Part shown: piece by piece, positions 1-61,466 of the stretch | Numbering within the stretch: the first letter of the stretch is position 1 | Layout of the letters: the number at the start of each line of letters is the position of its first letter | Assembly: GCF_022879575.1 (NCBI RefSeq) | Contig: NZ_CP084262.1 | Coordinates: forward strand, 186,001 to 250,000 | Length of the DNA stretch: 64,000 nucleotides | Source of the DNA: Caballeronia sp. SL2Y3 | GTDB lineage: Bacteria > Pseudomonadota > Gammaproteobacteria > Burkholderiales > Burkholderiaceae | Reading direction: 5' to 3' | Made by a program: the position numbers and the translations under genes | Notes under the pieces: model-generated | Told to the model about the DNA's origin: nothing | The model's database searches: none | What the model saw: the letters and a program-made list of their open reading frames with translations, nothing else

Positions 1-1379
1 AGCGAGACGACGACCTGCTTCAGTTCTGCGGGCGACAGGCCTTGCAGCGCATCGTTCGCAGGCAGCGTCAGCGTGCCGCCGGCGTGATGCATGGCCGCCG
101 ACACCTCGAACGGTCCGATCGTTCCCACGAAGCGGGCTTGCGCGCTCGGATCGGCGTCTCCGGCAGACGGCAAGTTGACGTACACGTTATAGAAGTAGCC
201 GCCTTGTTTGCCGAGCGACGTGACCATCATCGAGTCGAAGACGATGTTCACATACTTGGCCTGACCGGGCGCTGCCTGGGCGTTCGGGCTGGCGCTCGTG
301 GTCGCCGATGTGGCCGCCGAAGTGGCCGCCGAAGTGGCTGCGGTCGACGTCACCGCCGTTTGCAGAGCCGTCACATCCGACGATGCCAGCGTGACCGCCG
401 CGCTCACCGAGCGTTCAGTGAGCTTGAGATTCGCCACGCCGCCGAGCGAGCGGCGACCGTTCGCGATGGAGCGCGGCCCGGTCGCGCTGAAATTGCCGAT
501 GGTCGGACGGGTGCGGATCGGCGGAATCTGCGCCTGCACGCGGATGATTCTCCCCTCTTGCGCGCTGGGCGGCATCGACGTCGGCAACGCGTTGCTCGCG
601 TACGAATAACCCAGCGCCGAGGGCTGGTACGTCTTCGACTTGGATATCGTGAGTCCGGACGCGTATGTGAACGAGCCGCTCCAGTAGGAATCCGTCGGCG
701 CCGGGTAATTGGTTCGCGCGAGGCCCGCCCAACCGTCGAACAGGCGGTCGACGTTCGCATGGTGCAGGTAGAAGATCGGATCGGTCGGCGACTGCATGTC
801 GGCCATCCATCCACCGATAATGTCGTGTACCGGATTGTGCGGCGCATTCTCGAACGACGCTTCGTACGAATTGCTGGTGCCGCGCTGGAAGTTATTGACC
901 TGCGTCGAGAACGGCGCCATGGTCAGCGCGTTATAGACGTTCGAGTTCACGCGGCCGGACACGTATAACGGATTACCCGTCGCGCTATCGAGAAATTCGG
1001 TCGGAATCGTCGGATGCGCGTAGTAATCCCAATAAGGCAACGTGAGCGAACTGTCTCCACTGACGGTTCGCAGCTGCTGTTCGAAATAATACAGATAGCC
1101 TCGGTGCCACGCGAAGAAGTACGGCTTCATGTGCGGGCAGTAGTTCACATGCACGTTCACCCAGTACGCCCACGAAGTGGGCTTGCTTGCGTCGGTGACG
1201 GCCTTCATCAACTTGATGGCATTGAGAAACGACGCATATTGGGGCGTCGTTTTAAACGTTTGCCATTCGAGGCGGACATGGCCCGTGGTAGCCATGCTGG
1301 GAATGGGAAGCGACATCAACGCCGCAGCGGACGCAGAGCTCTTCAGGAAGGTCCGGCGACTATAGGGGTTCTTTGCCAT
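1..1379 (-). CDS. Tat-exported tyrosinase (type-3 copper oxidase), C-terminus cut by window edge
   Basis: Predicted binuclear copper monooxygenase that oxidises phenols to quinones, acting outside the cytoplasm. The N-terminus carries a twin-arginine signal (SRRTFLK) followed by an Ala/Ser-rich hydrophobic stretch, which fits export of a pre-folded copper enzyme. The CuA region is visible as HMKPYFFAWHRGYLYYFE and the CuB region as PHNPVHD...DPIFYLHHANVDRLFDGW, so the copper-binding histidines appear intact. After the catalytic domain comes an Ala/Thr/Ser linker encoded by a 12-bp tandem repeat, then a C-terminal domain that may shield the active site, as in other tyrosinases. The gene reads off the left edge, so the 3' end and downstream neighbours are unseen. 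Start: ATG at 1377-1379 after a GGAGAATCAAG leader. A palindromic operator-like site lies about 245 bp upstream. The family call is firm; the substrate is unknown. Confidence 0.9.
   Translation of the reverse strand, partial: MAKNPYSRRTFLKSSASAAALMSLPIPSMATTGHVRLEWQTFKTTPQYASFLNAIKLMKAVTDASKPTSWAYWVNVHVNYCPHMKPYFFAWHRGYLYYFEQQLRTVSGDSSLTLPYWDYYAHPTIPTEFLDSATGNPLYVSGRVNSNVYNALTMAPFSTQVNNFQRGTSNSYEASFENAPHNPVHDIIGGWMADMQSPTDPIFYLHHANVDRLFDGWAGLARTNYPAPTDSYWSGSFTYASGLTISKSKTYQPSALGYSYASNALPTSMPPSAQEGRIIRVQAQIPPIRTRPTIGNFSATGPRSIANGRRSLGGVANLKLTERSVSAAVTLASSDVTALQTAVTSTAATSAATSAATSATTSASPNAQAAPGQAKYVNIVFDSMMVTSLGKQGGYFYNVYVNLPSAGDADPSAQARFVGTIGPFEVSAAMHHAGGTLTLPANDALQGLSPAELKQVVVS
307..342 (-). 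repeat. 12-bp tandem repeat in the tyrosinase linker
   Basis: Three consecutive units of the pattern GA[A/T]GTGGC[C/T]GC[C/G] (plus strand) encode repeated Ala-Ala-Thr-Ser on the minus strand. The repeat lies between the copper domain and the C-terminal domain and is likely a length-variable flexible linker. Confidence 0.7.
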
Positions 1380-1620
1380 CTTGATTCTCCTGCGGCTAAA
1401 TCGATGTATTGTGCGCGGGCACGCGTTAGGGGCCGTGTGCACTGGCAGATGCACAAGGCGAGATCATGAGTGCGGTATCGGACCGACCGGACATACGATA
1501 CCCGTCATCGCGCGCGCGGTAAGCCGCAGTTGGCGCCGGAATGTGGCACGCCGCACAATGTTCGGTTGTGCGGGGCGGCGGGTGAAGGGGATTTGAAGGG
1601 AAGGGCCCGGACAGACGCGC

Positions 1621-1642
1621 AATCCGACCGGTCGGTCGGATT
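1621..1642. promoter_or_regulatory. Perfect palindrome, TetR-type operator candidate
   Basis: AATCCGACCG and CGGTCGGATT form a perfect 10-bp inverted repeat separated by GT, containing the fully symmetric core CCGACCGGTCGG. Length and GACCGGTC-like symmetry resemble operators of TetR-family repressors. The site lies in the non-coding region upstream of the tyrosinase gene. No tetR gene is visible in the window, so the binding protein is unknown. Confidence 0.5.
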
Positions 1643-1724
1643 AGTGTGCCGCGGCGCTCGCGCAACGCTTTGTACGTGTGCGCTTCGCTAATCCGCCACT
1701 TGGATTTGCAGATGAAAGACCCGC

Positions 1725-1769
1725 AGGCCCGCTCGGCTCTTGTATTCGTTCTGTTGAGCGGGCGGGCCT
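1725..1769 (-). terminator. Possible stem-loop after the exported-protein gene
   Basis: GCCCGCTC (1727-1734) pairs with GAGCGGGC (1756-1763) around a 21-nt loop; an alternative pairing uses AGGCCCGC (1725-1732) with GCGGGCCT (1762-1769). It sits just past the 3' end of the minus-strand gene ending at 1779. There is no T-tract, so it is only a candidate terminator. Confidence 0.3.
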
Positions 1770-1778
1770 TAGGCGGGA

Positions 1779-2471
1779 TCAATCGTTGTCAAGCTCGGCA
1801 TTCGCATCATTGCGCACGAAGCCGGTATCGTGTAGTTGGAAGGTATCGTGCGGTAGACGTTCACGATCGACCGCAGTCACGCGCCACACGACGCCCTGCG
1901 CGCCGGACCAGATCACGAGCGGCAAGCGGTCCTTCTCGCTCCAGCAGACGCGATGCGTCTCGCCCGCCTGCTCGATCCCATACCACCTGCATGTCGCCAG
2001 GGGCGCGTCGATCTTGGGCGGCGCCTCGGCCGGCACGATGCGGTACGCGCCGACCGGATGCCGCAATCCGTGCGACAGATCGAACCAGTCCGAGAAGCGC
2101 CCCAGACGCACGAGGTTGTTCCGGTCGATGCGCGTCGTGATGCGCTTGTCGTAGTCGACGACGATCATCTGATAATCGGTCGGGTCCGAAGCATCGCGAA
2201 TCACGTACGTGTCGACAGCATCGTCGGTGCGGCGGCGCAGGCGCGACTCGCCATCGCGCCAGACCTGCATCGTGTGCAGGCCGTCGCGCGCCGAATACTT
2301 CACCGTGAAGTGCAGCGTCGGCGGCTCGCCCTGCGCGGAAAACGCGGATTCGAAGGTCGGCGCATGCGCCTTTTTCGGCGCGGCGTGCGCGGAAGAACAG
2401 ATCAGAAACGCGCCGCACAGCGATGCGAGCATCGCCGCGCGGCCGCGCTTAATGGCGAATGGCCTTGGCAT
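1779..2471 (-). CDS. Small exported protein of unknown function
   Basis: A 230-residue protein starting with a basic stretch and a hydrophobic signal segment ending near AHA, so it is predicted to be periplasmic. The mature part is polar with several Trp, Tyr and Asp residues (for example YQMIVVDYDKRITTRIDRNN) and two cysteines in the C-terminal half that might form a disulfide. No named family is recognised. Its start overlaps the 3' end of the upstream phosphodiesterase-like gene by 23 bp, and no Shine-Dalgarno is visible, so translation is probably coupled and the two proteins may act together. An internal ATG at 2430-2432 would also leave a signal-like segment. Confidence 0.75.
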   Translation of the reverse strand: MPRPFAIKRGRAAMLASLCGAFLICSSAHAAPKKAHAPTFESAFSAQGEPPTLHFTVKYSARDGLHTMQVWRDGESRLRRRTDDAVDTYVIRDASDPTDYQMIVVDYDKRITTRIDRNNLVRLGRFSDWFDLSHGLRHPVGAYRIVPAEAPPKIDAPLATCRWYGIEQAGETHRVCWSEKDRLPLVIWSGAQGVVWRVTAVDRERLPHDTFQLHDTGFVRNDANAELDND

Positions 2472-4590
2472 AGTCGAAGTAGCGATAAGTCTTGTTGTCC
2501 ACGGTCAGATCCTTGACCGCGAGGTTGATCGTGTAGGTGCCCTGCGCGAGAGACGTGTCGGCGGTGGCGCCGGTCGGGTCCGTGGGCAGCTCGAAGCGCA
2601 AGCCCGTGGCGACCGAAGGCGGCGTGACCACCGACGCCGCCACGCTCGGCGTCGCGCTGCTCGCGGCATTTTTGAGCGATTCGTTGATGATGCGCCCGTC
2701 GGCCTGCGGCATCGACAGACCGAGCAGATAGGCGACCGTCGGCGCGACATCGACGTTGCCGGTCGGCGTGCTGACGACCGTCGACGGCTTGAACGACGGA
2801 CCGTTCGCGATCAGCGTGTTGTGCACGTCGTTGACGCCGAAGCTGCCGTGCATGCCGCGCTGTCCGCCCACGCTCTCGAACTCGATGCCGGGCATGCCTT
2901 GCACGCTCGTCTGGTCGTCCCACGTGAAGCTCGCGACCACGTCCGGCTGGCCGTTGTTCTGGCGCTGGGCGTTTTCGAGGTTCACCATCGACATCGGCAG
3001 GGTGCCCGGCAGGTTGCCGTAGCGGCTATCCACGAAGATCGCGCCGAACTCTTCGCGCTGTTGCAGCACTTGCACGAGCTTGCGAACGGTGGCGGGATCG
3101 TGGCCCGGCACGTAGAAGTAGTCGGAGCCGCCGTTCGCCGCAATGACGATGCCGTTCGCCGGCAAGCTGCCGACCGCCGGCACCTTGAAGCTCGCGACGG
3201 GCGTTGGCAGGTTGGCGCTGATCGCCTGATATTTCGTGTTGGCCGCGCCGCACAGCGTGCCGGTCGTATCGTTCTTCAGAGGCACCGTGGGCGTGCCGTT
3301 CGCCGTCAGACCGTACATGGCCGACGTGACGCAGCCCGAGCCGTCGTAGGCGTTGAAGCCGCGGAAGGTGAGGAGGTCGGCGGAGCGCACGTCGCCGGAA
3401 AACGAGTAGCCGTTCGCGTTGACGGCGCCGAGCGCGGCGGCGTCGGCGCCGCTCGTCGAGCCGTTGACGGGGCTGCCCGAAGGCGGCGTCGCGGACGGCG
3501 TGATGGCGCGCAGCGGATACAGCGCGAGCGGACCCGACACGCTCGAATGCCCGTGGTCCGATACGACGACGATATTGGTCGTCTCGTAGAGATTGTTGGC
3601 TTTCAGGCCTGCGATCAGCTCGCCGAGCCGCGCGTCTTGCGAACGCAGGCCGGCCTTCATGTTCGACGTGCCGGGACCATAGCCGTGCTCCACGTTATCC
3701 GGCGTGCGGAACCAGATGAGCGACAGCATGGGCTGCTTCTTCGGCAGGATGTACTGCGTGAAGACGGACATCATGTACTTGTTGGCCGCGTCTTCCGGCG
3801 CGCCTTGCGTCGTGTCGGCGCTGTCGCGCGCGGCGACCGTGAGCTTGCCTGCCGGGTCGTAGGCCGTGGTGTTGAACGTGACGTAGCCGGCGCGCGCGGT
3901 CGGATCGCCGTTGCTGGAAGCGAGCGTGACGGCGTCGTTGCCGGAATAGCCGAACACCGTATTCTTCGGCACGGCGATGTTCGCGGCCTGAAGTTCGGAG
4001 ACGAGGCTGCGCGGCTGCACGGTGTTTTCGTCGAGGAAGTAGCCGCCCTGATTCAGGTTCTGAATGTACGCCGCGCCGGATTTGCCGATGGCGGCCGTCA
4101 CGATGCCGGCGGCCTGCGCGGTGGCAAACAGGCTTTTGACGAGCAGCAACTGGCCGCCGTAGTAGTTATTGAGCGTGGTCAGGACTTGATAGTCCTCGGT
4201 GAACACGGGATCGACGTAATCCTGACTCGCGCCCGAAGCCGACTTGCCGACGGGGATCGTGTTCGACGCGCCTTGCGGCGGCGTCCAGAAGGTATTGCCG
4301 TAGAAGCCGCTCGTCTTCGGGAACGAGCCCGTCGCGAACGACGAGCCGTTCATCATCGTGAAGGTCGGATACGTCGAGTGATTGTCGGTGAAGTTGACGC
4401 CGGCCTGACGGAGCGCGTAGAGATTCGGCGTATCCGCTTGGGTGACCGAGTCAGGGCGCAGCCCGTCCCACACCATGATGACGGTGCGCGTGGCCTGCTG
4501 AGGGTTCGGATGCGACGCATCATGTCCGCCGCAACCGAGTAAAGACACACTGCCCACCAGGGCCATCGACCAGAAACGCAGGCTCGCCAT
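2449..4590 (-). CDS. Alkaline-phosphatase-superfamily lipoprotein (nucleotide pyrophosphatase/phosphodiesterase-like)
   Basis: Predicted metal-dependent phosphodiesterase or phosphatase, lipid-anchored in the envelope. The start at 4590 has a good GGAG ribosome site and gives a lipoprotein signal ending in LLGC. Superfamily landmarks are visible: the first metal Asp in VIMVWDGLRPDSVT, the nucleophile region NHSTYPTF followed by ATGSFPKTSGFYGN (nucleophile probably the Thr of STYP), and the late metal motif SDHGHSS. At about 713 residues it is longer than the minimal enzyme and has a C-terminal region after the catalytic core, as well as a Ser/Pro-rich stretch. It overlaps the following small exported-protein gene and forms a two-gene unit with it. 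The substrate (nucleotide, phospholipid or other phosphoester) cannot be read from sequence. Confidence 0.85.
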   Translation of the reverse strand: MASLRFWSMALVGSVSLLGCGGHDASHPNPQQATRTVIMVWDGLRPDSVTQADTPNLYALRQAGVNFTDNHSTYPTFTMMNGSSFATGSFPKTSGFYGNTFWTPPQGASNTIPVGKSASGASQDYVDPVFTEDYQVLTTLNNYYGGQLLLVKSLFATAQAAGIVTAAIGKSGAAYIQNLNQGGYFLDENTVQPRSLVSELQAANIAVPKNTVFGYSGNDAVTLASSNGDPTARAGYVTFNTTAYDPAGKLTVAARDSADTTQGAPEDAANKYMMSVFTQYILPKKQPMLSLIWFRTPDNVEHGYGPGTSNMKAGLRSQDARLGELIAGLKANNLYETTNIVVVSDHGHSSVSGPLALYPLRAITPSATPPSGSPVNGSTSGADAAALGAVNANGYSFSGDVRSADLLTFRGFNAYDGSGCVTSAMYGLTANGTPTVPLKNDTTGTLCGAANTKYQAISANLPTPVASFKVPAVGSLPANGIVIAANGGSDYFYVPGHDPATVRKLVQVLQQREEFGAIFVDSRYGNLPGTLPMSMVNLENAQRQNNGQPDVVASFTWDDQTSVQGMPGIEFESVGGQRGMHGSFGVNDVHNTLIANGPSFKPSTVVSTPTGNVDVAPTVAYLLGLSMPQADGRIINESLKNAASSATPSVAASVVTPPSVATGLRFELPTDPTGATADTSLAQGTYTINLAVKDLTVDNKTYRYFDYAKAIRH

Positions 4591-4837
4591 TCGATTTGCT
4601 CCGTTAGTCTTCAACATCGTTTAGAGCAGCGAGGCTAAAGACGCAGGATTACAAGGAAGTGACAATGCTTGCGATTGTCTACTTCGGGCGCTGGGGGGAT
4701 GGGAGCGATACGTTGAATGGACGCTGGAGGCGTCGAGTGCGATGCTTCGGGCGAAAGAGGAGTCGAGACTTAGCTCTTGCCTTTGTGTGTCTGTCCAGAT
4801 TGGACAGGATCAATGCTCAGTGCACGCGAACGCCCAG

Positions 4838-9347: not shown

Positions 9348-10889
9348 TCAGGCGGCCGTCTTGAAGACGGACATCGTCGCGCGCAGTGTTTCGGCCTGAT
9401 CCTGAAGGGAACCGGCAGCGGCCGCCGCCTGTTCGACGAGCGCGGCGTTCTGCTGCGTGACCTCGTCCATCTGGCTGATGGCCTGGTTCACCTGCTCGAT
9501 GCCGCGGCTCTGCTCGTTCGATGCAGATGCGATCTCGTCCATGATGTCGGTCACCTTCTGAATCGCCGAGCCGATCTTTTGCATCGTCTCGCCCGCGCGG
9601 CCAACGAGTTCCGTACCGTTACGCACGCGCGAACTGGAGACTTCGATCAACTCGCGAATCTCCTTCGCCGCCGTAGAGGAGCGCTGCGCGAGGCTGCGCA
9701 CTTCGCCCGCGACCACAGCGAAGCCGCGGCCCTGCTCGCCGGCGCGCGCCGCTTCCACCGCAGCGTTCAGCGCGAGGATGTTCGTCTGGAAGGAAATCCC
9801 TTCGATCATGCCGATGATCTCGCCGATCTTGTGCGAGCTTTGCTCGATCTCGGCCATCGTCCCCACGACGTCGCCTACGATCGTCGCGCCTTCTTGCGCA
9901 ACGTCGCGGGCATTCCCCGCCAAGCCGCTGGCCTGACGCGCGTTTTCAGAGTTGTGCTTCACCGCCGCGGTCAGTTCCTCCATGCTCGCTGCGGTTTCTT
10001 CGAGCGATGCCGCCTGCTGCTCGGTGCGCGATGACAAGTCCGTGTTGCCGACAGCTATTTCACGGCTTGCGCTCGCAATGGCGTTCGCGGAGGTCTTCAC
10101 GCTGTCGACCGCGCCGAGCAGTTGAGCACGCATGCGAGCCATCGAATACATGAGGCTCGAGCGGTCGTCGGGCGCCGTAGCGACCTCGACCGCGAGATTG
10201 TTGTCCGCGATCTGGTTCGCGACTTCAGCGGCGTATGCCGGTTCACCGCCCATCGAGCGCAAAATGCCGCGATTCAGGCGCAACACGACAACGCTCAGCA
10301 CAACAGCCATCACCGCAAGCGCGCCGATGCTCCATTCGAGCGACGCGTAGAACGACGCATCGATGTCATCGATGTAGACACCGGTGAGAACGAACCAGTC
10401 CCACGGCTGATACACCGACACGTAGGACATCTTGGGCTGGACTGCATTGGTGCCGGGTTTCGCGAACGAATAGTACATGTAGCCTGCGCCCTGGCGCTTG
10501 CCCACATCGATAAGCTCGCGGTACACGTAGAGGCCGTTCGGGTCCTTGAAATCCATCATCGTCTTGCCGACGAAATCCGGCTTGAAAGGATGCACAAGCA
10601 CTTTGGCCTGTGAATCGAACACGGTGAAGTAGCCGTTGTCACCGAAGCGAATATCACGGATGGCGTTGAGCGCGCCTTGCTTCGCTTGATCCTGCGTGAT
10701 CGCGCCGCTACTGGCCTGCTGGGCGAATTCACGAATGATGCTGTTCGTGACTTCGGTGGCGTGCTTGATGTCTAGCTGCGTCTGTTCAGTGCGGATCGAG
10801 CGCATGCGCAATGCATCGGCAATCGAGACTCCGGCGAGGCATACGAGGCAAAGCAGCAGAGGAAGCCAGAGTTTTTTGGAGAAGGTCAT
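9348..10889 (-). CDS. Methyl-accepting chemotaxis protein with sCache sensor
   Basis: A 513-residue inner-membrane chemoreceptor. A first transmembrane helix ([21 protein letters not shown]) is followed by a periplasmic single-Cache domain ([10 protein letters not shown]...[14 protein letters not shown]...[15 protein letters not shown]), a second helix, a HAMP-like linker, and the signalling domain with the strongly conserved hairpin [25 protein letters not shown]. Cache sensors of this type often bind small organic acids; the ligand here is unknown. The C-terminus (SVFKTAA) lacks a CheR/CheB tether, unlike the receptor at 11749. Start ATG 10887-10889 lies 28 bp after the cheW stop, so it is co-transcribed with cheW. 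No clear Shine-Dalgarno is visible. Confidence 0.93.
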
Positions 10890-10917: not shown

Positions 10918-11405
10918 TCAGGCGGTAACACTTTCGATCAGCGACATTTCTTCGCTGGTCACGAGTTTCTCGATGTCCATCAGGATCAACATTCGGTTGT
11001 CGATCGTCCCGATGCCGGTGATGTAGTCGGTGTCGAGCGTCGAGTTGAAGCCCGGCGCAGGACGAATCTGCTCGGGCGTAAGCGTCTGCACGTCCGATAC
11101 GCCGTCAACGACGATGCCGACCACGCGGCCGGCCACGTTGAGCACGACGACAACCGTCTGTTCGTCATACGCGGCGCGCTCCAACTCGAATTTCAGGCGC
11201 ATATCGGCGATCGGCGCGATCACCCCGCGCAGGTTGATCACGCCCTTGATGAACACGGGTGCATTGGAAACGCGCGTCACCGCGTCGTATCCGCGAATTT
11301 CCTGGACCTTGAGAATGTCGATGCCGTACTGCTCCTGGCCCAGGTTGAAGATGAGAATTCCTGGCCGCCCGCTTCGGGCGCACCGTGTCTGTGATCGCTG
11401 TTCAT
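10918..11405 (-). pseudogene. cheW: cheW, coupling protein gene with an apparent 1-bp frameshift near the N-terminus
   Basis: CheW links chemoreceptors to the CheA kinase. Starting at ATG 11403-11405 the frame reads [17 protein letters not shown], a typical CheW N-terminus, then breaks at the GAATTC at 11355-11360. One frame over, it resumes as [19 protein letters not shown] and runs through the complete CheW fold ([28 protein letters not shown]) to the stop at 10918. Restoring one C after GAATTC would rejoin the two parts exactly. A longer open frame upstream of the break exists in the downstream frame but encodes Arg/Pro-rich sequence unlike CheW. So this is either a real frameshift mutation or a sequencing/assembly error. 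It sits directly upstream of the receptor gene at 9348-10889. Confidence 0.85.
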
Positions 11406-11748
11406 TTCCGCAAGTGCTGGTTCGAGGGTACTCGCGCACCCACACCCCAGGGCGGACGCGCGCCGTAGTTTCAGACAACGGCATCGTGGAAAGAAACTGA
11501 ACAGCGCGCCGCACGTTTCTAAGTTCTCCGGCTGGGTCGCAAACTTTGCGACTCCCGATCAGCCTGTCCAGCGGCAAGGACCACGAGATCTGTGGCGCAA
11601 AGGCTCGCGGCACGCACTGCGGCGTTGTTCCTGGCAATAGTTACCGCAGAACACCAATATATCGGGCGGCGGTGAACCGTTTGTCCTCGACTGTTGTGCG
11701 TGCGTTGCCGATAACCATTGAAATGCAATCGCCACTAAAGGAGCTCAC
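11406..11748. other. Divergent control region of the chemotaxis island
   Basis: About 340 bp between cheW (minus) and the second receptor (plus). It holds a sigma-28-like element facing the plus-strand unit at 11688-11714. No matching TTATCGGC box was seen facing cheW. Confidence 0.5.
11688..11714 (+). promoter_or_regulatory. Sigma-28 (FliA)-type promoter candidate
   Basis: GCCGATAA at 11707-11714 is a perfect match to the FliA -10 box. The region 11 nt upstream (11688-11695, CGACTGTT) is only a partial match to TAAAGTTT. It lies 34 bp before the ATG of the receptor gene. Receptor genes are classical late flagellar-regulon members, which supports the call. Confidence 0.5.
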
Positions 11749-13470
11749 ATGCAGTTCAGGAATATCCGCATCGCAGCCAAGCTCGGTATCGGCTTCGGCA
11801 TCGCCCTGTTGTCGCTGTGCTTGATCGGCGGCTTGGCTTTGCTTCAAGTCTCGCGGGTTTATCGAGGTACGGAAGACATCGCGCAGAACTGGTTACCCAG
11901 TGTGCAAACGCTAAGCGATATTCGCGCATCGGCGAACGCCGTCAGACGTGCGACGTTGGTGATGGTGCTGACGACCGATGCTCAGGAGAGGGAAAGACAA
12001 GTGCAGAAGCACACCGATGCTCTGCAAGCGCTCAACAGCGCGATCTCCAAATATCAGACGATGGTGTCCTCGTCGGAAGAGAAGCAGGTCTTCGACGATC
12101 TGAAGGCCGCGTTGTCGGTCTACCTGACGGCCGACGCAAAAATCGTTTCAATGGTACGCGACGGCGATGGCCACTTCGACGAAGTTCGCCTCCTTGCTGG
12201 AAATGAATCTTCTCTTCTCTTGGCACCGGTGATGGAGTTGATCGACAAGGATGTCGCGATCAACAGAAAGGGCGCCAACGATGCGGCCGACGCGGCCGCC
12301 AGTAATTATCACAGTACCTTTGTTGTGACGGCGATTTTGCTGGTGCTCGCCTTGCTCGGCAGCGTCGGCGCCGCCGTGCTGATCACGCGCTCCATCGTGG
12401 CGCCGATTCGTCGCTCGGTACAGGTGGCAGAGACTGTCGCCGAAGGCGATCTGACGTCCGTGATCGTCGACGACGCGAAAGACGAAACGGGCCAATTGTT
12501 GCGTGCACTTCGCAACATGAACGAGCGTCTGTCTGACCTCGTCGGTCAGGTCCGCACGGGAAGCCAGAGCATCGCCACCGCGTCTGCACAGATCGCAGCG
12601 GGCAACACTGACCTCAGCCAGCGAACCGAAGAGCAGGCCGCGTCGTTGGAAGAGACGGCCGCGAGCATGGAAGAACTGACCTCGGCGGTGAAGCAAAACA
12701 GCGAGAACGCCATGCAGGGCAACAAGCTCGCATCGAACGCGTCTGAGCTAGCGGAACGCGGGGGCGAGGTCGTTGGCCGTGTTGTCGAAACGATGAAGGA
12801 AATCAGCGCGAGTTCGTCCAAGGTGGCTGAGATCATCGCAGTGATCGAGGGCATCGCCTTTCAGACGAATATTCTTGCGCTGAACGCGGCTGTCGAAGCG
12901 GCTCGGGCAGGCGAGGAGGGGCGAGGCTTCGCCGTCGTAGCCGGTGAGGTGCGCACGCTGGCACAGCGAAGCGCAACGGCTGCAAAGGAAATCAAAGACC
13001 TGATCGGTGCATCGGTCGATAAGGTCAGCGTCGGCTCGCAGCTTGTCGAAGAGGCGGGCGAGACAATGACCGAGGTGGTGACGTCGGTGAAGCGCGTCGC
13101 GGACCTGATGGGCGCGATCTCCGCGGCTTCGACGGAGCAGCACGCGGGCATCGAACAAGTCAACGTAGCCGTCTCGCAGATGGACGAGGTCACGCAGCAG
13201 AACGCCGCGCTCGTTGAACAAGCCAGTGCCGCCGCGCAGTCGATGGCGCAGCAGTCCGGTGCCCTGCGCGATGTCGTCTCGATCTTCAAGGTCAACGACG
13301 CCAGCAGCTTCGAACAAAAGCCGGTGGCCGCACGCTCGGAACCGGTGTTGCCGGCGGCGAGCGCTAGCGCAAAGTTGGCTCGACGGTCGTCGTCGCCTTC
13401 CCAACGCCCCAAGGCGGCCGTTGCAGCGGAATTCGCATCCGCCGACAGTGGCGATTGGTCGACGTTCTGA
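11749..13470 (+). CDS. Methyl-accepting chemotaxis protein with 4-helix-bundle sensor and C-terminal tether
   Basis: A 573-residue chemoreceptor: transmembrane helix ([21 protein letters not shown]), a periplasmic four-helix-bundle ligand domain (about residues 35-185), a second helix ([19 protein letters not shown]), a HAMP domain ([20 protein letters not shown]) and a full signalling hairpin with [20 protein letters not shown]. The protein ends in DWSTF, which fits the xWxxF pentapeptide that tethers CheR and CheB to high-abundance receptors (NWETF in E. coli Tsr/Tar). A 50-residue flexible linker precedes it. Start: AAAGGAG before ATG. It leads a three-gene unit with a 123-residue unknown and cheY, behind a sigma-28-like promoter. 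Confidence 0.94.
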
Positions 13471-13485: not shown

Positions 13486-13857
13486 ATGTCGCTAAAGACT
13501 GACGGCCCGAGGCCAGAGGCGCATTCTTCCCTGTTCCCGCCTTCCGACGAAGGACCGCAGAGGGATGTCGCGATTCGTCATGAGATGGGTGACATGGTCA
13601 AGCAACTGCATGAACTTCGTCGTCGGCTCGAGGAGATCGACGGCAAGCTTGCGCGGGACGCGGTCGAGGCGGTCATCAGGGCCTGCTTCCAACTAGACGA
13701 ATTTCTGCGGTCATCCGGCACTTCGCCCGGCGGCGGGGTCGAGACAGGCCTCGCCATACGTCCGCGCGCAACTACGCAGTTGACGCCGCGTCAGGCCGCG
13801 CTCGCGCAGTTGGAACGGGCGCACAAAGAGAAAGAAGCATCAACAGATAAGGAGTAA
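13486..13857 (+). CDS. 123-residue coiled-coil protein between a chemoreceptor and cheY
   Basis: Small soluble protein with a charged central helix likely to form a coiled coil (MVKQLHELRRRLEEIDGKLARDAVEAVIRACFQLDEFL) and a disordered, charged C-terminus. It has a clear CGGAGG ribosome site, and only 15 bp separate it from the receptor gene and 4 bp from cheY, so it is surely co-translated with a chemotaxis function. It is too short for CheZ and lacks a CheZ active-site motif that I can see. A role as receptor- or CheY-associated adaptor is inference from context. Confidence 0.75.
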   Translation: MSLKTDGPRPEAHSSLFPPSDEGPQRDVAIRHEMGDMVKQLHELRRRLEEIDGKLARDAVEAVIRACFQLDEFLRSSGTSPGGGVETGLAIRPRATTQLTPRQAALAQLERAHKEKEASTDKE

Positions 13858-13861
13858 GGAA

Positions 13862-14284
13862 ATGCGGTTGCTGGTAGTCGATGATCTGACCACGATGCGC
13901 AGCTTGATTCGGAAGATGCTGAAGACGATCGGTTACACCACCATCGAAGAAGCAGTCGATGGCATTCAGGCGCTCGACAGGCTGAAAGAGCAGCGCTTTG
14001 ACCTCGTCATTACTGACTGGAACATGCCCAATATGGACGGGTTGACCCTGCTGCAGGAAATTCGCAAGTCCGAGCATCACGGTGACGTACCGGTGCTGAT
14101 GGTGACTGCCGAAAAGAAAAGAGAGAACGTGCTGGCGGCAATTCAAGCCGGTGCTAGCGGCTATGTCGTGAAGCCCTTCTCCGAGGCTGCACTGGCCGAC
14201 AAGCTGGCGCAAATTGCGCCGCTTCCGAAAACCGATGCCGCCGAAGATCGCGGCTCAGCGGTCTTCGGTGCTGTCTTTATGTGA
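13862..14284 (+). CDS. cheY: CheY-type response regulator
   Basis: Stand-alone receiver domain of 140 residues. Acidic pocket D7/D8 (VVDD), phosphoacceptor D52 (VITDWNMPNMDG), T82 (MVTAE) and K104 (VVKPF) are all present, so it should be phosphorylated by CheA and act on the flagellar switch or as a phosphate sink. It has a C-terminal tail of about 20 residues beyond the usual CheY end. Its place in an operon with one receptor, away from cheA, suggests an accessory CheY; no cheA, cheR or cheB is in the window. Confidence 0.93.
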   Translation: MRLLVVDDLTTMRSLIRKMLKTIGYTTIEEAVDGIQALDRLKEQRFDLVITDWNMPNMDGLTLLQEIRKSEHHGDVPVLMVTAEKKRENVLAAIQAGASGYVVKPFSEAALADKLAQIAPLPKTDAAEDRGSAVFGAVFM

Positions 14285-15212: not shown

Positions 15213-17606
15213 ATGCGCTTCAGTCGCTTGATGAGAAACGCGTACGTCGAACGGCAGCGCCGCCGTTTGCCGCCTTTCACCTCATCGCGGATGAGTACGG
15301 CGGTGCGGATCGCCTTCATCGCCGGCATCGCGAGCGCCGGCGCCCATGCGGCGCAGCCGCTGCCGGTCGGCGGGGCGTTCGTCGTCGGGACGGGCAACAT
15401 CGCGCAGAGCGGCAACGTCCTGACCGTCACGCAGTCGGGGTATCGGGGCATCATCGAGTGGAAGGGATTCTCGATTGCGCCGGGCCATACAGTGTCGATC
15501 GCAAACGGCTCCGGCGCGACGCTCAACCGGGTCATCGGCAACGATGTCTCCGCCATCTACGGCACGCTCAAGGCGACCGGCAGCGTGTGGCTCATCAATC
15601 CGCACGGCGTGCTCATCGGGCCGAGCGGCGTGGTGTCGACGGGCGGGCGCTTCGTCGCCTCGACGCTCGATGTCAGCAACGACGACTTCAACGTCTCTTA
15701 CCAGACCTTGTTCAAAGGCACGTCCAACGCGGATGTGGTCAACCTCGGCAAGATCAGTTCTTCCGGCGGCGACGTCTTTCTGATCTCGGCGCACAAGATC
15801 CTTAATGCAGGCACGATCGAGGCGCCCGCCGGCACGGCGGAAATGGCGGCGGGCCGCACGGTCAGTCTGGTGGACAGCACCTATGGCCCGCAGATCGGCG
15901 TCGCGGTCGGAAGCGGCGCGACCGTGACCGACTCCGGTCCGGTGCGGGCGGCGCTCATCAATCTGCAGGCGGCAGACGGCAATATCTTCGCGCTCGCCGG
16001 GCGATCCGGCGCATTGCGCGCCACGGCCACGGCCACGCGCGGCGGCCAGGTCTGGCTGGTCGCGGAAACCGGCACCGTGGATGCGCGCGGCGCGGCCATC
16101 AGCGCGCATGACGCGGACGGCACGGGCGGCGCGGTCAACGTGAGGGGCAGGAACGTGCGGATCGGCGGCGCGCAGATCGACACATCGAGGATAGAGCTCA
16201 CCACTGCGGACTTCGCGATCGACGCACCCACGGCGCAAACGCTCGGCGCGAGCCTGAGCGGCGGCGCATCCGTGACCGTGAACGCGGACGGCGCGGACGG
16301 CAAGTTCGGCGCGAACGGCGAGGGCAACATCGACGTGGGCTCGAGCCTTCGCTGGACCGGCGCCGCGCCGCTTCAGTTGCTGGCTGCGCACTCGCTGAGC
16401 ATCGCGCCGGGGGCGACGATCGCCAACGAGGGCAGCGCATCGCTCACGCTGAATGCGGATGCGCATGGCTTCGACAAAGGCGGCAGCGTGACCAATCGCG
16501 GGACCATCGACTGGTCGCGCAGCACAGGGATCGTATCGGCGTTATACGACATCAATGGCAGCTATACCGCAGGCACGGTCCGCACGAATGCGGCGTGGCG
16601 GCCCGCACCGTTCAGCGGCCTGCTCACGCAATACACCGCGTACAAGCTCGTCAATAGCGCCGCCGATCTCAGCGCGATAAAGAACGACCTCGCAGGCACG
16701 TATGCGCTCGGCAACAGCCTCTATGTTCCCAATGCAGGTGACGCCGCCAATATCGGCACGGCGGCCGCGCCTTTCGCCGGACAGTTCGACGGCATGGGAC
16801 ACGTACCGACGGTCGCGAACATGTCGGGCGGAACGACGACCGGCCTGTTCGGCGTGATCGGGCGGGGCGCCATCGTGCGCAACTTCACGCTTGCCGAAGC
16901 CAGCGCGAGTTCGGCGGGCGGCGCGGTCGGGCTGATCGCAGGCGAGAACGATGGGCGCATCGTGAACGTCGGCGCAACGGGCGAAGTCACCTCCACCGGT
17001 AGCGGCGGCCGCGCGGGCGGTCTGGTCGGCATCAATCGCGGCACCGTCGAGCAGGCCTGGACGGGCGTGACCATCGACGGCGCGGGCACGGTCGGCGGGC
17101 TGGCCGGACAGAACGACGGCACCGTGCGCCAGTCTTTCGCGGAAGGAAGGATGACGGCGGGCAATCAAGCGACGCTCGGCGGACTCGTCGGCCAGAACAA
17201 TGGCCACATCACGCAGTCTTACGCGGATGCGACGCTGTCCGGCGGCGCGGTTGTGGGCGCGGTTGTGGGCGGGCTGGTCGGCGCGAATCGCGGTGGCATC
17301 TGCCAGTCGTATTCGGAATCGACCTTCACGCCGCCGGCGGGCACGAAGGCGGGCGGGATTGCCGGCGGGATTGCCGGGACGAACAGCGGGCGAATCGCCG
17401 GGAACGTGTTCTGGAACAAGGACGCGTTCATCGCGGCGGCGGGCGTGGGATCGGGCAACGCGGTGCCGGCGTCGAGCGGGCTGACGAACGAGCAGATCGG
17501 ACAAACTTCCAGCTACGGCCCGAGCTGGAATTTCAGCGCCAATGGCGTCTGGTCCATGCCGAGTTCGTACACTGGACCGTATCTGCGCTGGTTCTTCGGA
17601 TCGTGA
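15213..17606 (+). CDS. TpsA-like exported adhesin with TPS domain and GLUG repeats
   Basis: A 797-residue predicted large surface/exoprotein of the filamentous-haemagglutinin type. A long N-terminal signal region ends near AHAA, then the two-partner-secretion domain follows (PVGGAFVVGTGNI..., GSVWLINPHGVLIGPSG near residue 129, the counterpart of the NPNG motif). The passenger is a Gly/Ala-rich beta-helix, and residues about 560-720 contain GLUG-type repeats (GGLVGINRGTVEQAW, GGLAGQNDGTVRQSF, GGLVGQNNGHITQSY, GGLVGANRGGICQSY). Such proteins are moved across the outer membrane by a TpsB/FhaB-partner channel; no tpsB gene is visible within the window, so the partner must lie elsewhere. It ends before a stem-loop and is convergent with the next gene. 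A role in adhesion or aggregation is inferred from the family. Confidence 0.88.
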   Translation: MRFSRLMRNAYVERQRRRLPPFTSSRMSTAVRIAFIAGIASAGAHAAQPLPVGGAFVVGTGNIAQSGNVLTVTQSGYRGIIEWKGFSIAPGHTVSIANGSGATLNRVIGNDVSAIYGTLKATGSVWLINPHGVLIGPSGVVSTGGRFVASTLDVSNDDFNVSYQTLFKGTSNADVVNLGKISSSGGDVFLISAHKILNAGTIEAPAGTAEMAAGRTVSLVDSTYGPQIGVAVGSGATVTDSGPVRAALINLQAADGNIFALAGRSGALRATATATRGGQVWLVAETGTVDARGAAISAHDADGTGGAVNVRGRNVRIGGAQIDTSRIELTTADFAIDAPTAQTLGASLSGGASVTVNADGADGKFGANGEGNIDVGSSLRWTGAAPLQLLAAHSLSIAPGATIANEGSASLTLNADAHGFDKGGSVTNRGTIDWSRSTGIVSALYDINGSYTAGTVRTNAAWRPAPFSGLLTQYTAYKLVNSAADLSAIKNDLAGTYALGNSLYVPNAGDAANIGTAAAPFAGQFDGMGHVPTVANMSGGTTTGLFGVIGRGAIVRNFTLAEASASSAGGAVGLIAGENDGRIVNVGATGEVTSTGSGGRAGGLVGINRGTVEQAWTGVTIDGAGTVGGLAGQNDGTVRQSFAEGRMTAGNQATLGGLVGQNNGHITQSYADATLSGGAVVGAVVGGLVGANRGGICQSYSESTFTPPAGTKAGGIAGGIAGTNSGRIAGNVFWNKDAFIAAAGVGSGNAVPASSGLTNEQIGQTSSYGPSWNFSANGVWSMPSSYTGPYLRWFFGS

Positions 17607-57294: not shown

Positions 57295-58317
57295 ATGAAC
57301 ACCGAGCTCATTACCCATCAGAGCTGGAATCGCTGGCTCGCACCGCTCACGGACGCTGCCCCCTGCGGGCCCGACCTCGAGTACGACCCTCAGTTTCGCG
57401 AGTTCGAAGAGGCGATCGAGGGCCGTCCGGAAGCAGAGTATGGCGCGACGCTCGTCGCCGCAGTGCCGCCCGACTGGACCGTCGTGGACTCACTCGGCAC
57501 GGCGCTGATGGAGCGCACACGGGACCTGCGTGTGATCGTGCCGCTGGTGCGTGCCCGTCTGGCTCGCCAGGGCGTCGAAGGACTGAGCGATGGCCTCGCG
57601 CTCACGGTCGCGCTGCTCGAACAGCAATGGCAGCACGTGCATCCTCAACTCGATGCAGGCGACGCCGACGATCCCACCGCGCGCGTCAATGCGCTTGCCG
57701 CATGCGTCGATCCCGCTGGCTTGCTGGCCGAACTGGCGGACACGCCGCTGTCGGGCCAGGGGCAGCCGGTCACGCTGCGCGAATGGGCATACGCCAGCGG
57801 CGATGCCCACGCACCCGATGGTCGCGCGGTGCGCACCGCGTCGGAGATCGAGGCGGCGATCGCGGCTACACCTGAAACATCGCTGCGCGCGAAGGCTGCA
57901 TTCGATGCCGCGGCCGCTCACGTCGAGGCCATCGAAGCGCTTCTGTCGGCGCGTGTCGATGCGGCACGGACGCTCGATCTCGCTCCGTTGAAGACGCTAT
58001 TGGAGCGGGCAAGAGCGCTTTTCGCCGGGTGTCTCGGGAATCGCGCGGATGCACCCGTGCCGGGCGAGGGCGTATCAATGGCGGCCGGCGCGGGCGATGT
58101 CATCAACAGCCGCGCCGACGTGGCGGCGACGCTCACGCGCCTGTGCGAGTACTACGCGCGTCAGGAGCCCGCGAGCCCCGTGCCGCTGCTGCTCGGGCGC
58201 GCCATCACGCTGATCGACAAATCGTTTGTCGATCTGATGAAGGACCTCGCGCCGGAAGGGCTGGCGCAACTCATCCAAGTGGTCGGCGTATCGGCAGTCG
58301 AGTCGTTGGACGACTGA
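57295..58317 (+). CDS. tssA: T6SS baseplate/sheath-cap protein TssA
   Basis: TssA organises the baseplate and sheath polymerisation. The 340-residue protein has the ImpA_N domain near the N-terminus (GPDLEYDPQFREFEEAIEGRPEAEYG, then DLRVIVPLVRARLARQGVEGLSDGLAL) and a helical C-terminus ending SPVPLLLGRAITLIDKSFVDLMKDLAPEGL, typical of shorter TssA forms. It leads the visible tss run, with tssB 37 bp downstream. Confidence 0.93.
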   Translation: MNTELITHQSWNRWLAPLTDAAPCGPDLEYDPQFREFEEAIEGRPEAEYGATLVAAVPPDWTVVDSLGTALMERTRDLRVIVPLVRARLARQGVEGLSDGLALTVALLEQQWQHVHPQLDAGDADDPTARVNALAACVDPAGLLAELADTPLSGQGQPVTLREWAYASGDAHAPDGRAVRTASEIEAAIAATPETSLRAKAAFDAAAAHVEAIEALLSARVDAARTLDLAPLKTLLERARALFAGCLGNRADAPVPGEGVSMAAGAGDVINSRADVAATLTRLCEYYARQEPASPVPLLLGRAITLIDKSFVDLMKDLAPEGLAQLIQVVGVSAVESLDD

Positions 58318-58354
58318 GCCTCACGCCGCGCTTTTCAACCAGGAGCACTGACAG

Positions 58355-58879
58355 ATGGCCAAAGAGAGCAGTCAGAAATTCATCGCGCGCAATCGCGCGC
58401 CGCGTGTGCAGATCGAGTACGACGTCGAAGTGTACGGCTCGCAGAAGAAAGTCAATCTTCCTTTCGTGATGGGCGTGCTGTCCGACTTGTCGGGGCAGCC
58501 GCAGGAGGACCTGCCGCCTGTCGCGGAGCGCAAGTTCTTCGAGATCGATATCGACAACTTCGATGAACGCCTGCGTTCGATGAAGCCCCGCGTCGCCATG
58601 CAGGTCGACAACACGCTGACGGGCGAAGGGAAGATCGGCGTCGACATGACCTTCGAGAGCATGAACGACTTCGAGCCCGCCGCGATCGCCCGCAAGGTGG
58701 AACCGCTCGCGAGGCTGCTCGAAGCACGCAGTCAGTTGCGCAACCTGCTGACCTACATGGACGGCAAGACCGACGCCGAGAACCTCGTCGCGCGGCTGCT
58801 CGAAGACCCGGCGCTCATGAGTTCGCTGGCCGCCTTACCCAAGCCCGGCGAGCATGCCGAAACCCAGGATACCGAATAA
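58355..58879 (+). CDS. tssB: T6SS contractile sheath small subunit TssB
   Basis: A 174-residue sheath protein (VipA type). Characteristic parts: SQKFIARNRAPRVQIEYDVEVYGSQKKVNLPFVMGVLSDLSG and the conserved FEIDIDNFDERLRSMKPRVAMQVDN. It pairs with TssC to form the contractile tube. AGGAG ribosome site; tssC begins 10 bp after its stop. Confidence 0.97.
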   Translation: MAKESSQKFIARNRAPRVQIEYDVEVYGSQKKVNLPFVMGVLSDLSGQPQEDLPPVAERKFFEIDIDNFDERLRSMKPRVAMQVDNTLTGEGKIGVDMTFESMNDFEPAAIARKVEPLARLLEARSQLRNLLTYMDGKTDAENLVARLLEDPALMSSLAALPKPGEHAETQDTE

Positions 58880-58889
58880 GGGAACGACG

Positions 58890-60407
58890 ATGGCAGAAAC
58901 CAACTTCGATCAATCCGTCGAGCGCGATGGGCAACCAGCCTACGAAACCGGCGACGCAAGCCCGTCCGGCGAGTTCCAGCAACTCCTGCAGAAGGCGTTC
59001 CGTCCTCGCTCGGACAAGGCCCGCGAAGCGGTCGAAAGCTCGGTGCGCACGCTTGCCGAGCAGGCGCTGCTCGACACGCAGCGCGTGTCCGACGATGCGC
59101 TCGCGACCATCGAAGCGCTGATTGCGCGTATCGACGAAAAGCTGAGCGCGCAGATCAACGTGATCCTGCATGCGGAGCCTTTTCAGAAGCTCGAAAGCGC
59201 ATGGCGTGGCCTTCACTACCTCGTCACCAACACCGAAAGCGACGAGAGTCTCAAGCTGCGCGTGATGAACGTCTCGAAGGAAGACCTGCACCGTTCGTTG
59301 CGCAAGTACAAGGGCGTGGCATGGGATCAGAGTCCGCTCTTCAAGCGGCTCTACGAAGAGGAATACGGCCAGTTCGGCGGCGAGCCGTACGGTGCGCTCG
59401 TGGCCGACTATTACTTCGACAACAGCGGCCCCGACGTCGATTTCCTCACGCAGATCGGCAAGGTGTCGGCGGCGGCGCACGCACCGTTCATCGCCGGTGC
59501 GGATCCTGCCGTCATGCTGATGGATTCGTGGCAGGAGCTTGCGAACCCGCGCGATCTCACCAAGATCTTTCACACGCCCGAGCACGCCGCATGGCGGTCG
59601 CTGCGCGATTCCGAGGACTCGCGCTACATCGGCCTCGCCATGCCGCGCTTCCTCGCGCGCACGCCCTATGGCGCGAAGACGAGTCCGGTCGACGCGTTCG
59701 ATTTCGAGGAAGACACGGCGGGCACGGATGCATCGAAATACGCGTGGGCGAATGCCGCCTATGCCATGGCCGCCAACATCAACCGCTCGTTCAAGACGTG
59801 GGGATGGTGCTCGCGCATTCGCGGCATCGAGTCCGGTGGCGCGGTCGAGAACCTGCCGGTCCATGCGTTCCCGACCGACGACGGCGGCGTGGACATGAAG
59901 TGCCCGACCGAGATCGCCATCAGCGACCGCCGCGAGGCCGAACTCGCGAAGAACGGTTTCATGCCGCTCGTGCACCGGAAGAATTCCGACTTCGCGGCAT
60001 TCATCGGTGCCCAGTCGCTCAACAAGCCGATCGAGTACGAAGACCCCGACGCCACCGCGAACGCGAATCTGGCGGCGCGTCTGCCGTATCTGTTCGCGTG
60101 CGGCCGCTTTGCGCATTACCTGAAGTGCATCGCGCGCGACAAGGTGGGCAGCTTCAAGGAGAAGGACGAGATGCAGCGCTGGCTGCAGGACTGGATTCTT
60201 CAGTACGTGGACGGCGATCCCGCGAACTCGTCGGAAGAGACCAAAGCGCGCCGGCCCCTGGCCGCGGCGGAAGTCGTCGTCGAGGAAGTGGAGGGCAATC
60301 CGGGCTACTACACGTCCAAGTTCTTCCTGCGGCCGCACTACCAGCTCGAAGGCCTGACGGTGTCGTTGCGGCTCGTCTCGAAGCTGCCTTCCGCAAAAGC
60401 CGCCTGA
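58890..60407 (+). CDS. tssC: T6SS contractile sheath large subunit TssC
   Basis: A 505-residue sheath protein (VipB type). The conserved segments include ESAWRGLHYLVTNTES, YGALVADYYFDNSGPDVDFL, RFLARTPYG, and the C-terminal YYTSKFFLRPHYQLEGLTVSLRLVSKLPSAK. Start ATG 58890 is backed by AAGGGA. Full length for the family. Confidence 0.97.
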   Translation: MAETNFDQSVERDGQPAYETGDASPSGEFQQLLQKAFRPRSDKAREAVESSVRTLAEQALLDTQRVSDDALATIEALIARIDEKLSAQINVILHAEPFQKLESAWRGLHYLVTNTESDESLKLRVMNVSKEDLHRSLRKYKGVAWDQSPLFKRLYEEEYGQFGGEPYGALVADYYFDNSGPDVDFLTQIGKVSAAAHAPFIAGADPAVMLMDSWQELANPRDLTKIFHTPEHAAWRSLRDSEDSRYIGLAMPRFLARTPYGAKTSPVDAFDFEEDTAGTDASKYAWANAAYAMAANINRSFKTWGWCSRIRGIESGGAVENLPVHAFPTDDGGVDMKCPTEIAISDRREAELAKNGFMPLVHRKNSDFAAFIGAQSLNKPIEYEDPDATANANLAARLPYLFACGRFAHYLKCIARDKVGSFKEKDEMQRWLQDWILQYVDGDPANSSEETKARRPLAAAEVVVEEVEGNPGYYTSKFFLRPHYQLEGLTVSLRLVSKLPSAKAA

Positions 60408-60457
60408 ACGGCACGCACTCTTTAGCGCAGTCAATCAATTCTCGATAAGGAAACCTC

Positions 60458-60949
60458 ATGGCAGTCGATATTTTTTTGAAGCTGGACACGGTCAAGGGCG
60501 AATCGCTGGATTCGAAACACAAAGACGAGATCGACGTGCTCTCGTGGAGCTGGGGCCTGTCGCAATCGGGGACCATGCACCTCGGCACGGGCGGCGGCGG
60601 CGGCAAGGTCGCGGTGCAGGACCTGACCATCACGAAATACACCGACCGCGGCACGCCGTCGATCATCTCCGCCTGCGCCACCGGCAAGCACTTCCCGACC
60701 GGCAAGCTCACGGTGCGCAAGGCGGGCGGCACCAAGCCACTCGAGTACTACACCATCGAGCTCGAAAAGATCATCGTGACGAACTACGCGACCGGGGGCT
60801 CGGACGCCGAAGATCGCTTCACGGAGACGGTGACGCTCAACTTCGAGAAGTTTCACGTGACCTATCAGCAACAGGACCCGAGCACCGGGTCGGCGCAGGG
60901 CGGCGTGGTGGAGAGCAAGTGGAACATTCCCGCCAACGCGACCGCGTAA
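60458..60949 (+). CDS. hcp: Hcp tube protein (TssD)
   Basis: A 163-residue Hcp that forms the inner tube and is a classical T6SS secretion marker. Key motifs: AVDIFLKLDTVKGESLDSKHKDEIDVLSWSWG, TKYTDRGTPSIISACATGKHFPTGKLTVRKAGG and NFEKFHVTYQQQD. Good AAGGAA ribosome site. It lies between tssC and tssE, the usual order in several proteobacterial T6SS loci. Confidence 0.97.
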   Translation: MAVDIFLKLDTVKGESLDSKHKDEIDVLSWSWGLSQSGTMHLGTGGGGGKVAVQDLTITKYTDRGTPSIISACATGKHFPTGKLTVRKAGGTKPLEYYTIELEKIIVTNYATGGSDAEDRFTETVTLNFEKFHVTYQQQDPSTGSAQGGVVESKWNIPANATA

Positions 60950-60962
60950 GCGAGGCATCCGC

Positions 60963-61466
60963 ATGAGAAACGCGGACAGAGTGCGGCCGTCGCTGCTCGA
61001 CCGTCTGACCGATCATGCGCCCGGCGCATCACGCGAAGGGCGCGAGCACCGGGCCAGTTCGGCGCGCGCGCAACGCCTGAGCGTGATGCGCGATATCGGC
61101 TGGCTGCTCAACGCGCAGGGTATCGCGTCGGCGCAGGATATCGCGCGTTTTCCGGAAGTCGCCGCATCGGTGCTCAACTTCGGGTTCGCGGACCTGGCCG
61201 GCAAGAGCGCGTCGAACGTCGATGTCGGACGCATCGAACGGCTGATGAGCGACGCCATCAGCGCGTTCGAGCCGCGCATCGTGCCCGGCACGCTGCGGGT
61301 GCGCGCCATGCAGTCGGACGACGCGGCCATCCAGCACAACGCGCTGGCCTTCCTCGTGGAAGCGGATCTGCATGCGCATCCCGTGCCGGAGCGCCTCTAT
61401 TTGCGCACGGAGCTGGATCTGGAAGCAGGCAAGGCCAAGGTATTCGAAGGAGCCATCGAGCGATGA
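60963..61466 (+). CDS. tssE: T6SS baseplate protein TssE (gp25-like)
   Basis: A 167-residue gp25-like baseplate wedge protein: RPSLLDRLTD at the N-terminus, SVLNFGFADLAGKS, and the GPW/gp25 core IERLMSDAISAFEPRIVPGTLRVRAM. Start 13 bp after hcp; the stop overlaps tssF by ATGA. Confidence 0.95.
   Translation: MRNADRVRPSLLDRLTDHAPGASREGREHRASSARAQRLSVMRDIGWLLNAQGIASAQDIARFPEVAASVLNFGFADLAGKSASNVDVGRIERLMSDAISAFEPRIVPGTLRVRAMQSDDAAIQHNALAFLVEADLHAHPVPERLYLRTELDLEAGKAKVFEGAIER

Follow-up and report, generated by a model that had tools for sequence, protein, structure and literature searches.

The window, a stretch of 64,000 nucleotides of Caballeronia sp. SL2Y3 (G000:C3:186001-250000, in a genome of 5.5 Mb and five contigs that we call G000), carries a gene for the chemotaxis coupling protein CheW, here named cheW2, between two chemoreceptor genes. 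Directly 3' of cheW2, on the same minus strand, lies a methyl-accepting chemotaxis protein gene with an sCache_2 sensor (9348..10889; Pfam MCPsignal and sCache_2), and upstream of cheW2 a divergent chemoreceptor gene occupies the plus strand (11749..13470; Pfam 4HB_MCP_1, HAMP and MCPsignal). The latter is followed on the plus strand by a single-domain response regulator (13862..14284; Pfam Response_reg, 112.1 bits), with a 123-aa ORF in between (13486-13857) that had no Pfam match at 0.001. The order of receptor and cheW recurs in plasmid p3 of C. zhejiangensis, where both an intact cheW and a receptor are annotated; the window resembles this plasmid in that its cheW adjoins a receptor gene. 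A plasmid DNA search with a 5.5-kb query returned 23 records, none of which reached 80% query coverage, and the adjoining receptor, used as a protein query, had no match above 88% identity among the 120 matches listed.

Elsewhere in the window, positions 1-4723 match two other genomes of the genus at 92% (G078:C4 and G073:C36); these matches stop near 4.7 kb (4692 and 4723), and the chemotaxis genes lie beyond that point. The 797-aa product of an open reading frame at 15213-17606 combines a TPS secretion domain with a GLUG motif, and type VI secretion genes are found at 57295-63325, with Pfam matches to a VipA-type sheath protein at 58355 and to Hcp at 60458; the genes around these two are presumably further parts of the same secretion system.

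A frame break between tail and fold

Translation of cheW2 from its conserved ATG at 11405 yields 17 normal CheW N-terminal residues followed by 25 shifted ones, which begin SSSTWAR, and a stop at 11279-11277 (11277..11405, minus strand, 42 codons in all), and no Pfam match was obtained for this frame. The CheW domain itself lies in a shifted frame (10918..11358, minus strand, 146 codons and a stop), whose 146-aa translation (11358-10921) matches Pfam CheW with 134.2 bits against a cut-off of 23.5 and covers profile positions 2-137 of 138. An unbroken ORF that opens at the conserved start codon and spans the domain is absent, as the frame of ATG 11405 stops after 42 codons. The domain frame also matches the solved structures 2ho9 and 8c5v (E. 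coli CheW; cryo-EM, NMR), in both cases starting at the same phenylalanine-leucine strand (from residue 5 of 8c5v_E and residue 16 of 2ho9), and the break (11355..11361, minus strand) therefore falls where the N-terminal tail meets the first strand of the fold. The gene resembles CheW as known from Pfam (PF01584) and from E. coli in that its complete domain lies within a single frame and, in the structural alignment, is about 65% identical to E. coli CheW; unlike in CheW coupling proteins generally, the usual start codon is out of frame with that domain.

The comparison with relatives locates the shift precisely. A tblastn comparison over loci L001-L118 gave 113 rows that score above 200 bits and represent 94 distinct sequences. 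In each of the 111 that come from other loci, a glutamate-phenylalanine pair stands in frame directly before the leucine of LIF or LVF; the remaining two both show the place in the window itself and carry glycine-isoleucine. With nine cheW2 loci aligned as DNA, the window is one base short at the junction of tail and fold. The best protein match in a search of 5.8 billion sequences, P0001 (162 aa), agrees with the ATG frame throughout its first 17 residues and with the domain frame in 144 of its last 145, the sole difference in that part being V64 of P0001, which is alanine in the window. The 11 other cheW2 proteins compared differ from P0001 at 12-25 positions across the same 145 residues. 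As 111 of 111 rows run in frame and a nearly identical intact protein exists, we conclude from these alignments that the assembly lacks one base relative to its orthologues and that the change is recent, the distance of the other cheW2 proteins from P0001 arguing for the latter; the frame break relative to relatives is, on the same alignments, far beyond chance. A preliminary description of this DNA had proposed a recent single-base frameshift that splits cheW at the GAATTC of 11360-11355, and translation, tblastn, the nine-locus alignment and P0001 all bear out both the event and its place. The possibility that relatives have a CheW that starts in the downstream frame was rejected, with the glutamate-phenylalanine pair in frame in every row from another locus.

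The part of the gene beyond the break is well preserved, as had also been proposed. Over 141 codons, dN/dS was 0.053-0.104 in the eight pairs that include the window and 0.037-0.096 in 27 of the 28 pairs that do not, the outlier (L119-L042, 0.473) resting on five differences. The window pairs are slightly above the others, not clearly so, and at otherwise constant positions the window has three private residues, compared with 0-7 in the other sequences. The gene is in this respect like recent single-base frameshift pseudogenes, being one base short relative to intact relatives and showing little further decay.

Mutation or assembly error

In P. aeruginosa, a survey covering 4,699 strains counted on average 237 annotated pseudogenes in each and cautioned that frameshifts are difficult to distinguish from sequencing errors (PMC10580986). 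Among the matches listed in a literature search for frameshifts or pseudogenes of cheW, no title or abstract opening was about cheW. We weighed the reading that the true gene is intact and that the consensus sequence has missed one base. The existence of P0001, intact and otherwise nearly identical, speaks for such an error, and the low dN/dS of cheW2 counts in the same direction; should P0001 come from the same strain, assembled a second time, this reading would gain weight.

As a control, we compared 400 kb of the G000 chromosome with G078, the closest relative found (98% over the cheA-cheW region). The alignment, of 370,113 columns, held 125 one-base gaps that were missing bases in G000 and 117 that were missing bases in G078, and inside ORF interiors the numbers were 10 and 11. 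A screen for split ORFs with a coding filter and an 80% identity floor found that 4 of 302 coding-like G078 ORFs appear split in G000 and 10 of 297 in the other direction, several of these apparent splits being over-long 5' ends; the corresponding figures in a smaller coding-filtered screen were 1 of 144 and 2 of 140. An unfiltered version (10 of 135 and 11 of 131 splits) was set aside, because high-GC DNA gives long antisense ORFs, which it had included. Two of the four ORFs that appear split in G000, both on C1, are explained by a single base missing in G000, the same kind of change as the break in cheW2, which speaks for an error. The balance of gaps between the two genomes and the small number of ORFs split in G000 compared with the other direction speak against it, as does the break site, which is no long homopolymer. 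G000 is thus no richer in one-base gaps than its relative, and errors could be present in both genomes. Because the one-base gaps are balanced, we lean towards a real mutation, which we regard as probable; an assembly or sequencing error is less likely, but it is the main rival explanation.

Upstream starts and a possible re-tailed product

If the base is truly missing, the question arises of what the gene can still produce. The preliminary description held that the protein would then either be inactive or depend on frameshifting for its synthesis. Ribosomal frameshifting, whether programmed or spontaneous, would give the full protein and would fit the preservation of both halves of the gene. 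However, a search of the 42-codon frame for a slippery heptamer of the form XXXYYYZ before the shift found none, and no relative has a shift at the same place, all 111 rows from other loci being in frame. We rejected frameshifting for want of the slippery site and consider it extremely improbable.

Upstream of the gene, a conserved element reading TTCAGTTT-N11-GCCGTTGT is present on the minus strand at 11475..11501, about 70-96 bases upstream of the ATG. The first half, TTCAGTTT, was found in all nine cheW2 loci, 89-101 bases upstream of the ATG, and in the DNA alignment it is followed by a GCCGTT block in all nine. The exact pattern has a single match in the window and a single match in the genome. 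With up to one mismatch, the genome holds three matches, one of them exact, and one of the three, on C2, precedes another CheW-domain match by 140 bp. We take the element at 11501-11475 to resemble the sigma-28 (FliA) consensus; the label is tentative, since a reversed control pattern gives two matches in the genome against these three.

The CheW frame is open far upstream of the break, and two GTG codons, at 11445 and 11439, lie in it between the sigma-28-like element and ATG 11405. A candidate alternative product (10918..11445, minus strand) would start at GTG 11445 (175 aa) or GTG 11439 (173 aa) and join a new tail to a complete CheW domain. The 175-aa form matches Pfam CheW with 133.8 bits over residues 30-165 (profile positions 2-137 of 138). 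A first AlphaFold2 model of it from 14 close sequences was uninformative (pLDDT 37.8); with 50 sequences, the mean pLDDT was 81.2 and the first strand comprised residues 29-35. The best Foldseek match of this model was E. coli CheW (8c5v_E, E 2.1e-18, TM 0.74 by query), and the CheW fold of two beta-barrel subdomains is accordingly a prediction for the 175-aa form only. As an in-frame GTG start would yield a protein of 173-175 residues for which a whole CheW fold is predicted, the two outcomes named in the preliminary description form an incomplete list: a start at GTG 11439 or 11445, which would keep the domain, belongs beside inactivity, and the frameshifting part is unsupported.

Taken to its full extent, this would mean that the deletion only moves the start, so that the gene is re-tailed rather than silenced: from the same flagellar-type promoter and on the same transcript, a candidate GTG in the former leader would give an intact fold behind an unrelated, arginine-rich tail of 27-29 residues in place of the acidic-polar one. 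Both GTGs are downstream of the conserved element and in frame with the fold, the product would keep Pfam CheW positions 2-137, and the N-terminal tails of CheW differ widely among relatives. The Shine-Dalgarno score of GTG 11439 is better than that of the native ATG (-6.0 vs -3.5), but that of GTG 11445 is poor (-2.0), and promoter and start sites are predictions. In the corresponding frame of the eight other loci, moreover, a start before the first stop is found in three (L123, L119 and L042) and in none of the other five, and a GTG at these two positions in none of the eight. Because five of eight loci are without any start in that frame, the upstream open frame of the window looks fortuitous, and we judge re-tailing to be improbable, well behind an assembly error. 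If it were true, a single base loss would have made a leader into coding sequence.

The gene may nevertheless still be alive, since the CheW frame has been preserved in full and stays open a long way upstream. Here cheW2 differs from recent frameshift pseudogenes, in that its domain is still open to upstream starts, which leaves its loss of function uncertain. In Sodalis glossinidius, frameshift-shortened ORFs are described that may retain domains and transcription signals (PMC7067036). The protein-yielding pseudogenes of that species are similar to cheW2 in being shortened by a frameshift.

Other CheW copies and proposed consequences

An intact cheW elsewhere in the genome had been suggested as a point to look for, and one was found at G000:C1:121132-121542 (136.8 bits). 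This main cheW follows a CheW-domain match in a 789-aa open frame, which we take to be cheA. A further locus, G000:C4:25240-26481 (L006-L008), holds a 641-aa minus-strand open frame with three tandem CheW-domain matches. Of 57 other genomes of the genus, five (G005, G010, G020, G036 and G065) had, among the matches listed, a DNA match at the level of cheW2 (79-85%), and none was listed for the nearest genomes G078, G073, G076 and G077. By this distribution, cheW2 is an accessory copy that is patchy in the genus.

One other accessory cheW, at locus L041 (C. grimmiae R27 contig60, 3951-4438), is also one base short, elsewhere in the tail, and its CheW frame offers no start codon ahead of the fold. 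The usual receptor was not found among the ORFs that follow it, as presumptively identified from their sequences. The copy at L039 of the same strain is intact. The shift at L041 may itself be a draft assembly error; as its tail carries a separate shift of one base, this locus suggests that such loss arises more than once. Of the 489 bases, both shifts hit the first 51, which has a naive chance of 0.011; this is a figure for two cases and a pattern noticed afterwards, and we draw no conclusion from it.

Bringing these observations together, we consider it reasonably likely that the accessory cheW2 is a frameshifted allele, arisen by a recent mutation in this strain, which reduces the normal product or removes it altogether, and that the main CheW would keep chemotaxis working. 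Translation from ATG 11405 would end after 42 codons and give nothing useful, and the receptors, including the one encoded next door, would couple to CheA via the main CheW. The untranslated remainder of cheW2 may also lower expression of the downstream receptor gene, and some residual re-tailed CheW2 could possibly be made from the candidate GTG 11439 or 11445. As the intact main cheW would likely cover for the accessory copy, the mutation is probably mostly harmless. For Azospirillum brasilense, paralogues of different chemotaxis systems are reported to join one array (PMC6759762); mixed arrays as reported there make it plausible that another CheW would cover for cheW2.

Should the missing base be an error, the finding would be relevant solely to the annotation of the assembly. 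Were re-tailing true, the separate tail shift of L041 would mark the CheW tail as a place tolerant of frameshifts. If the mutation is real, cheW2 would provide a small case in which one strain has lost or altered an accessory coupling protein but kept the adjoining receptor intact, and would bear on the dispensability of extra CheW copies beside a main CheW.
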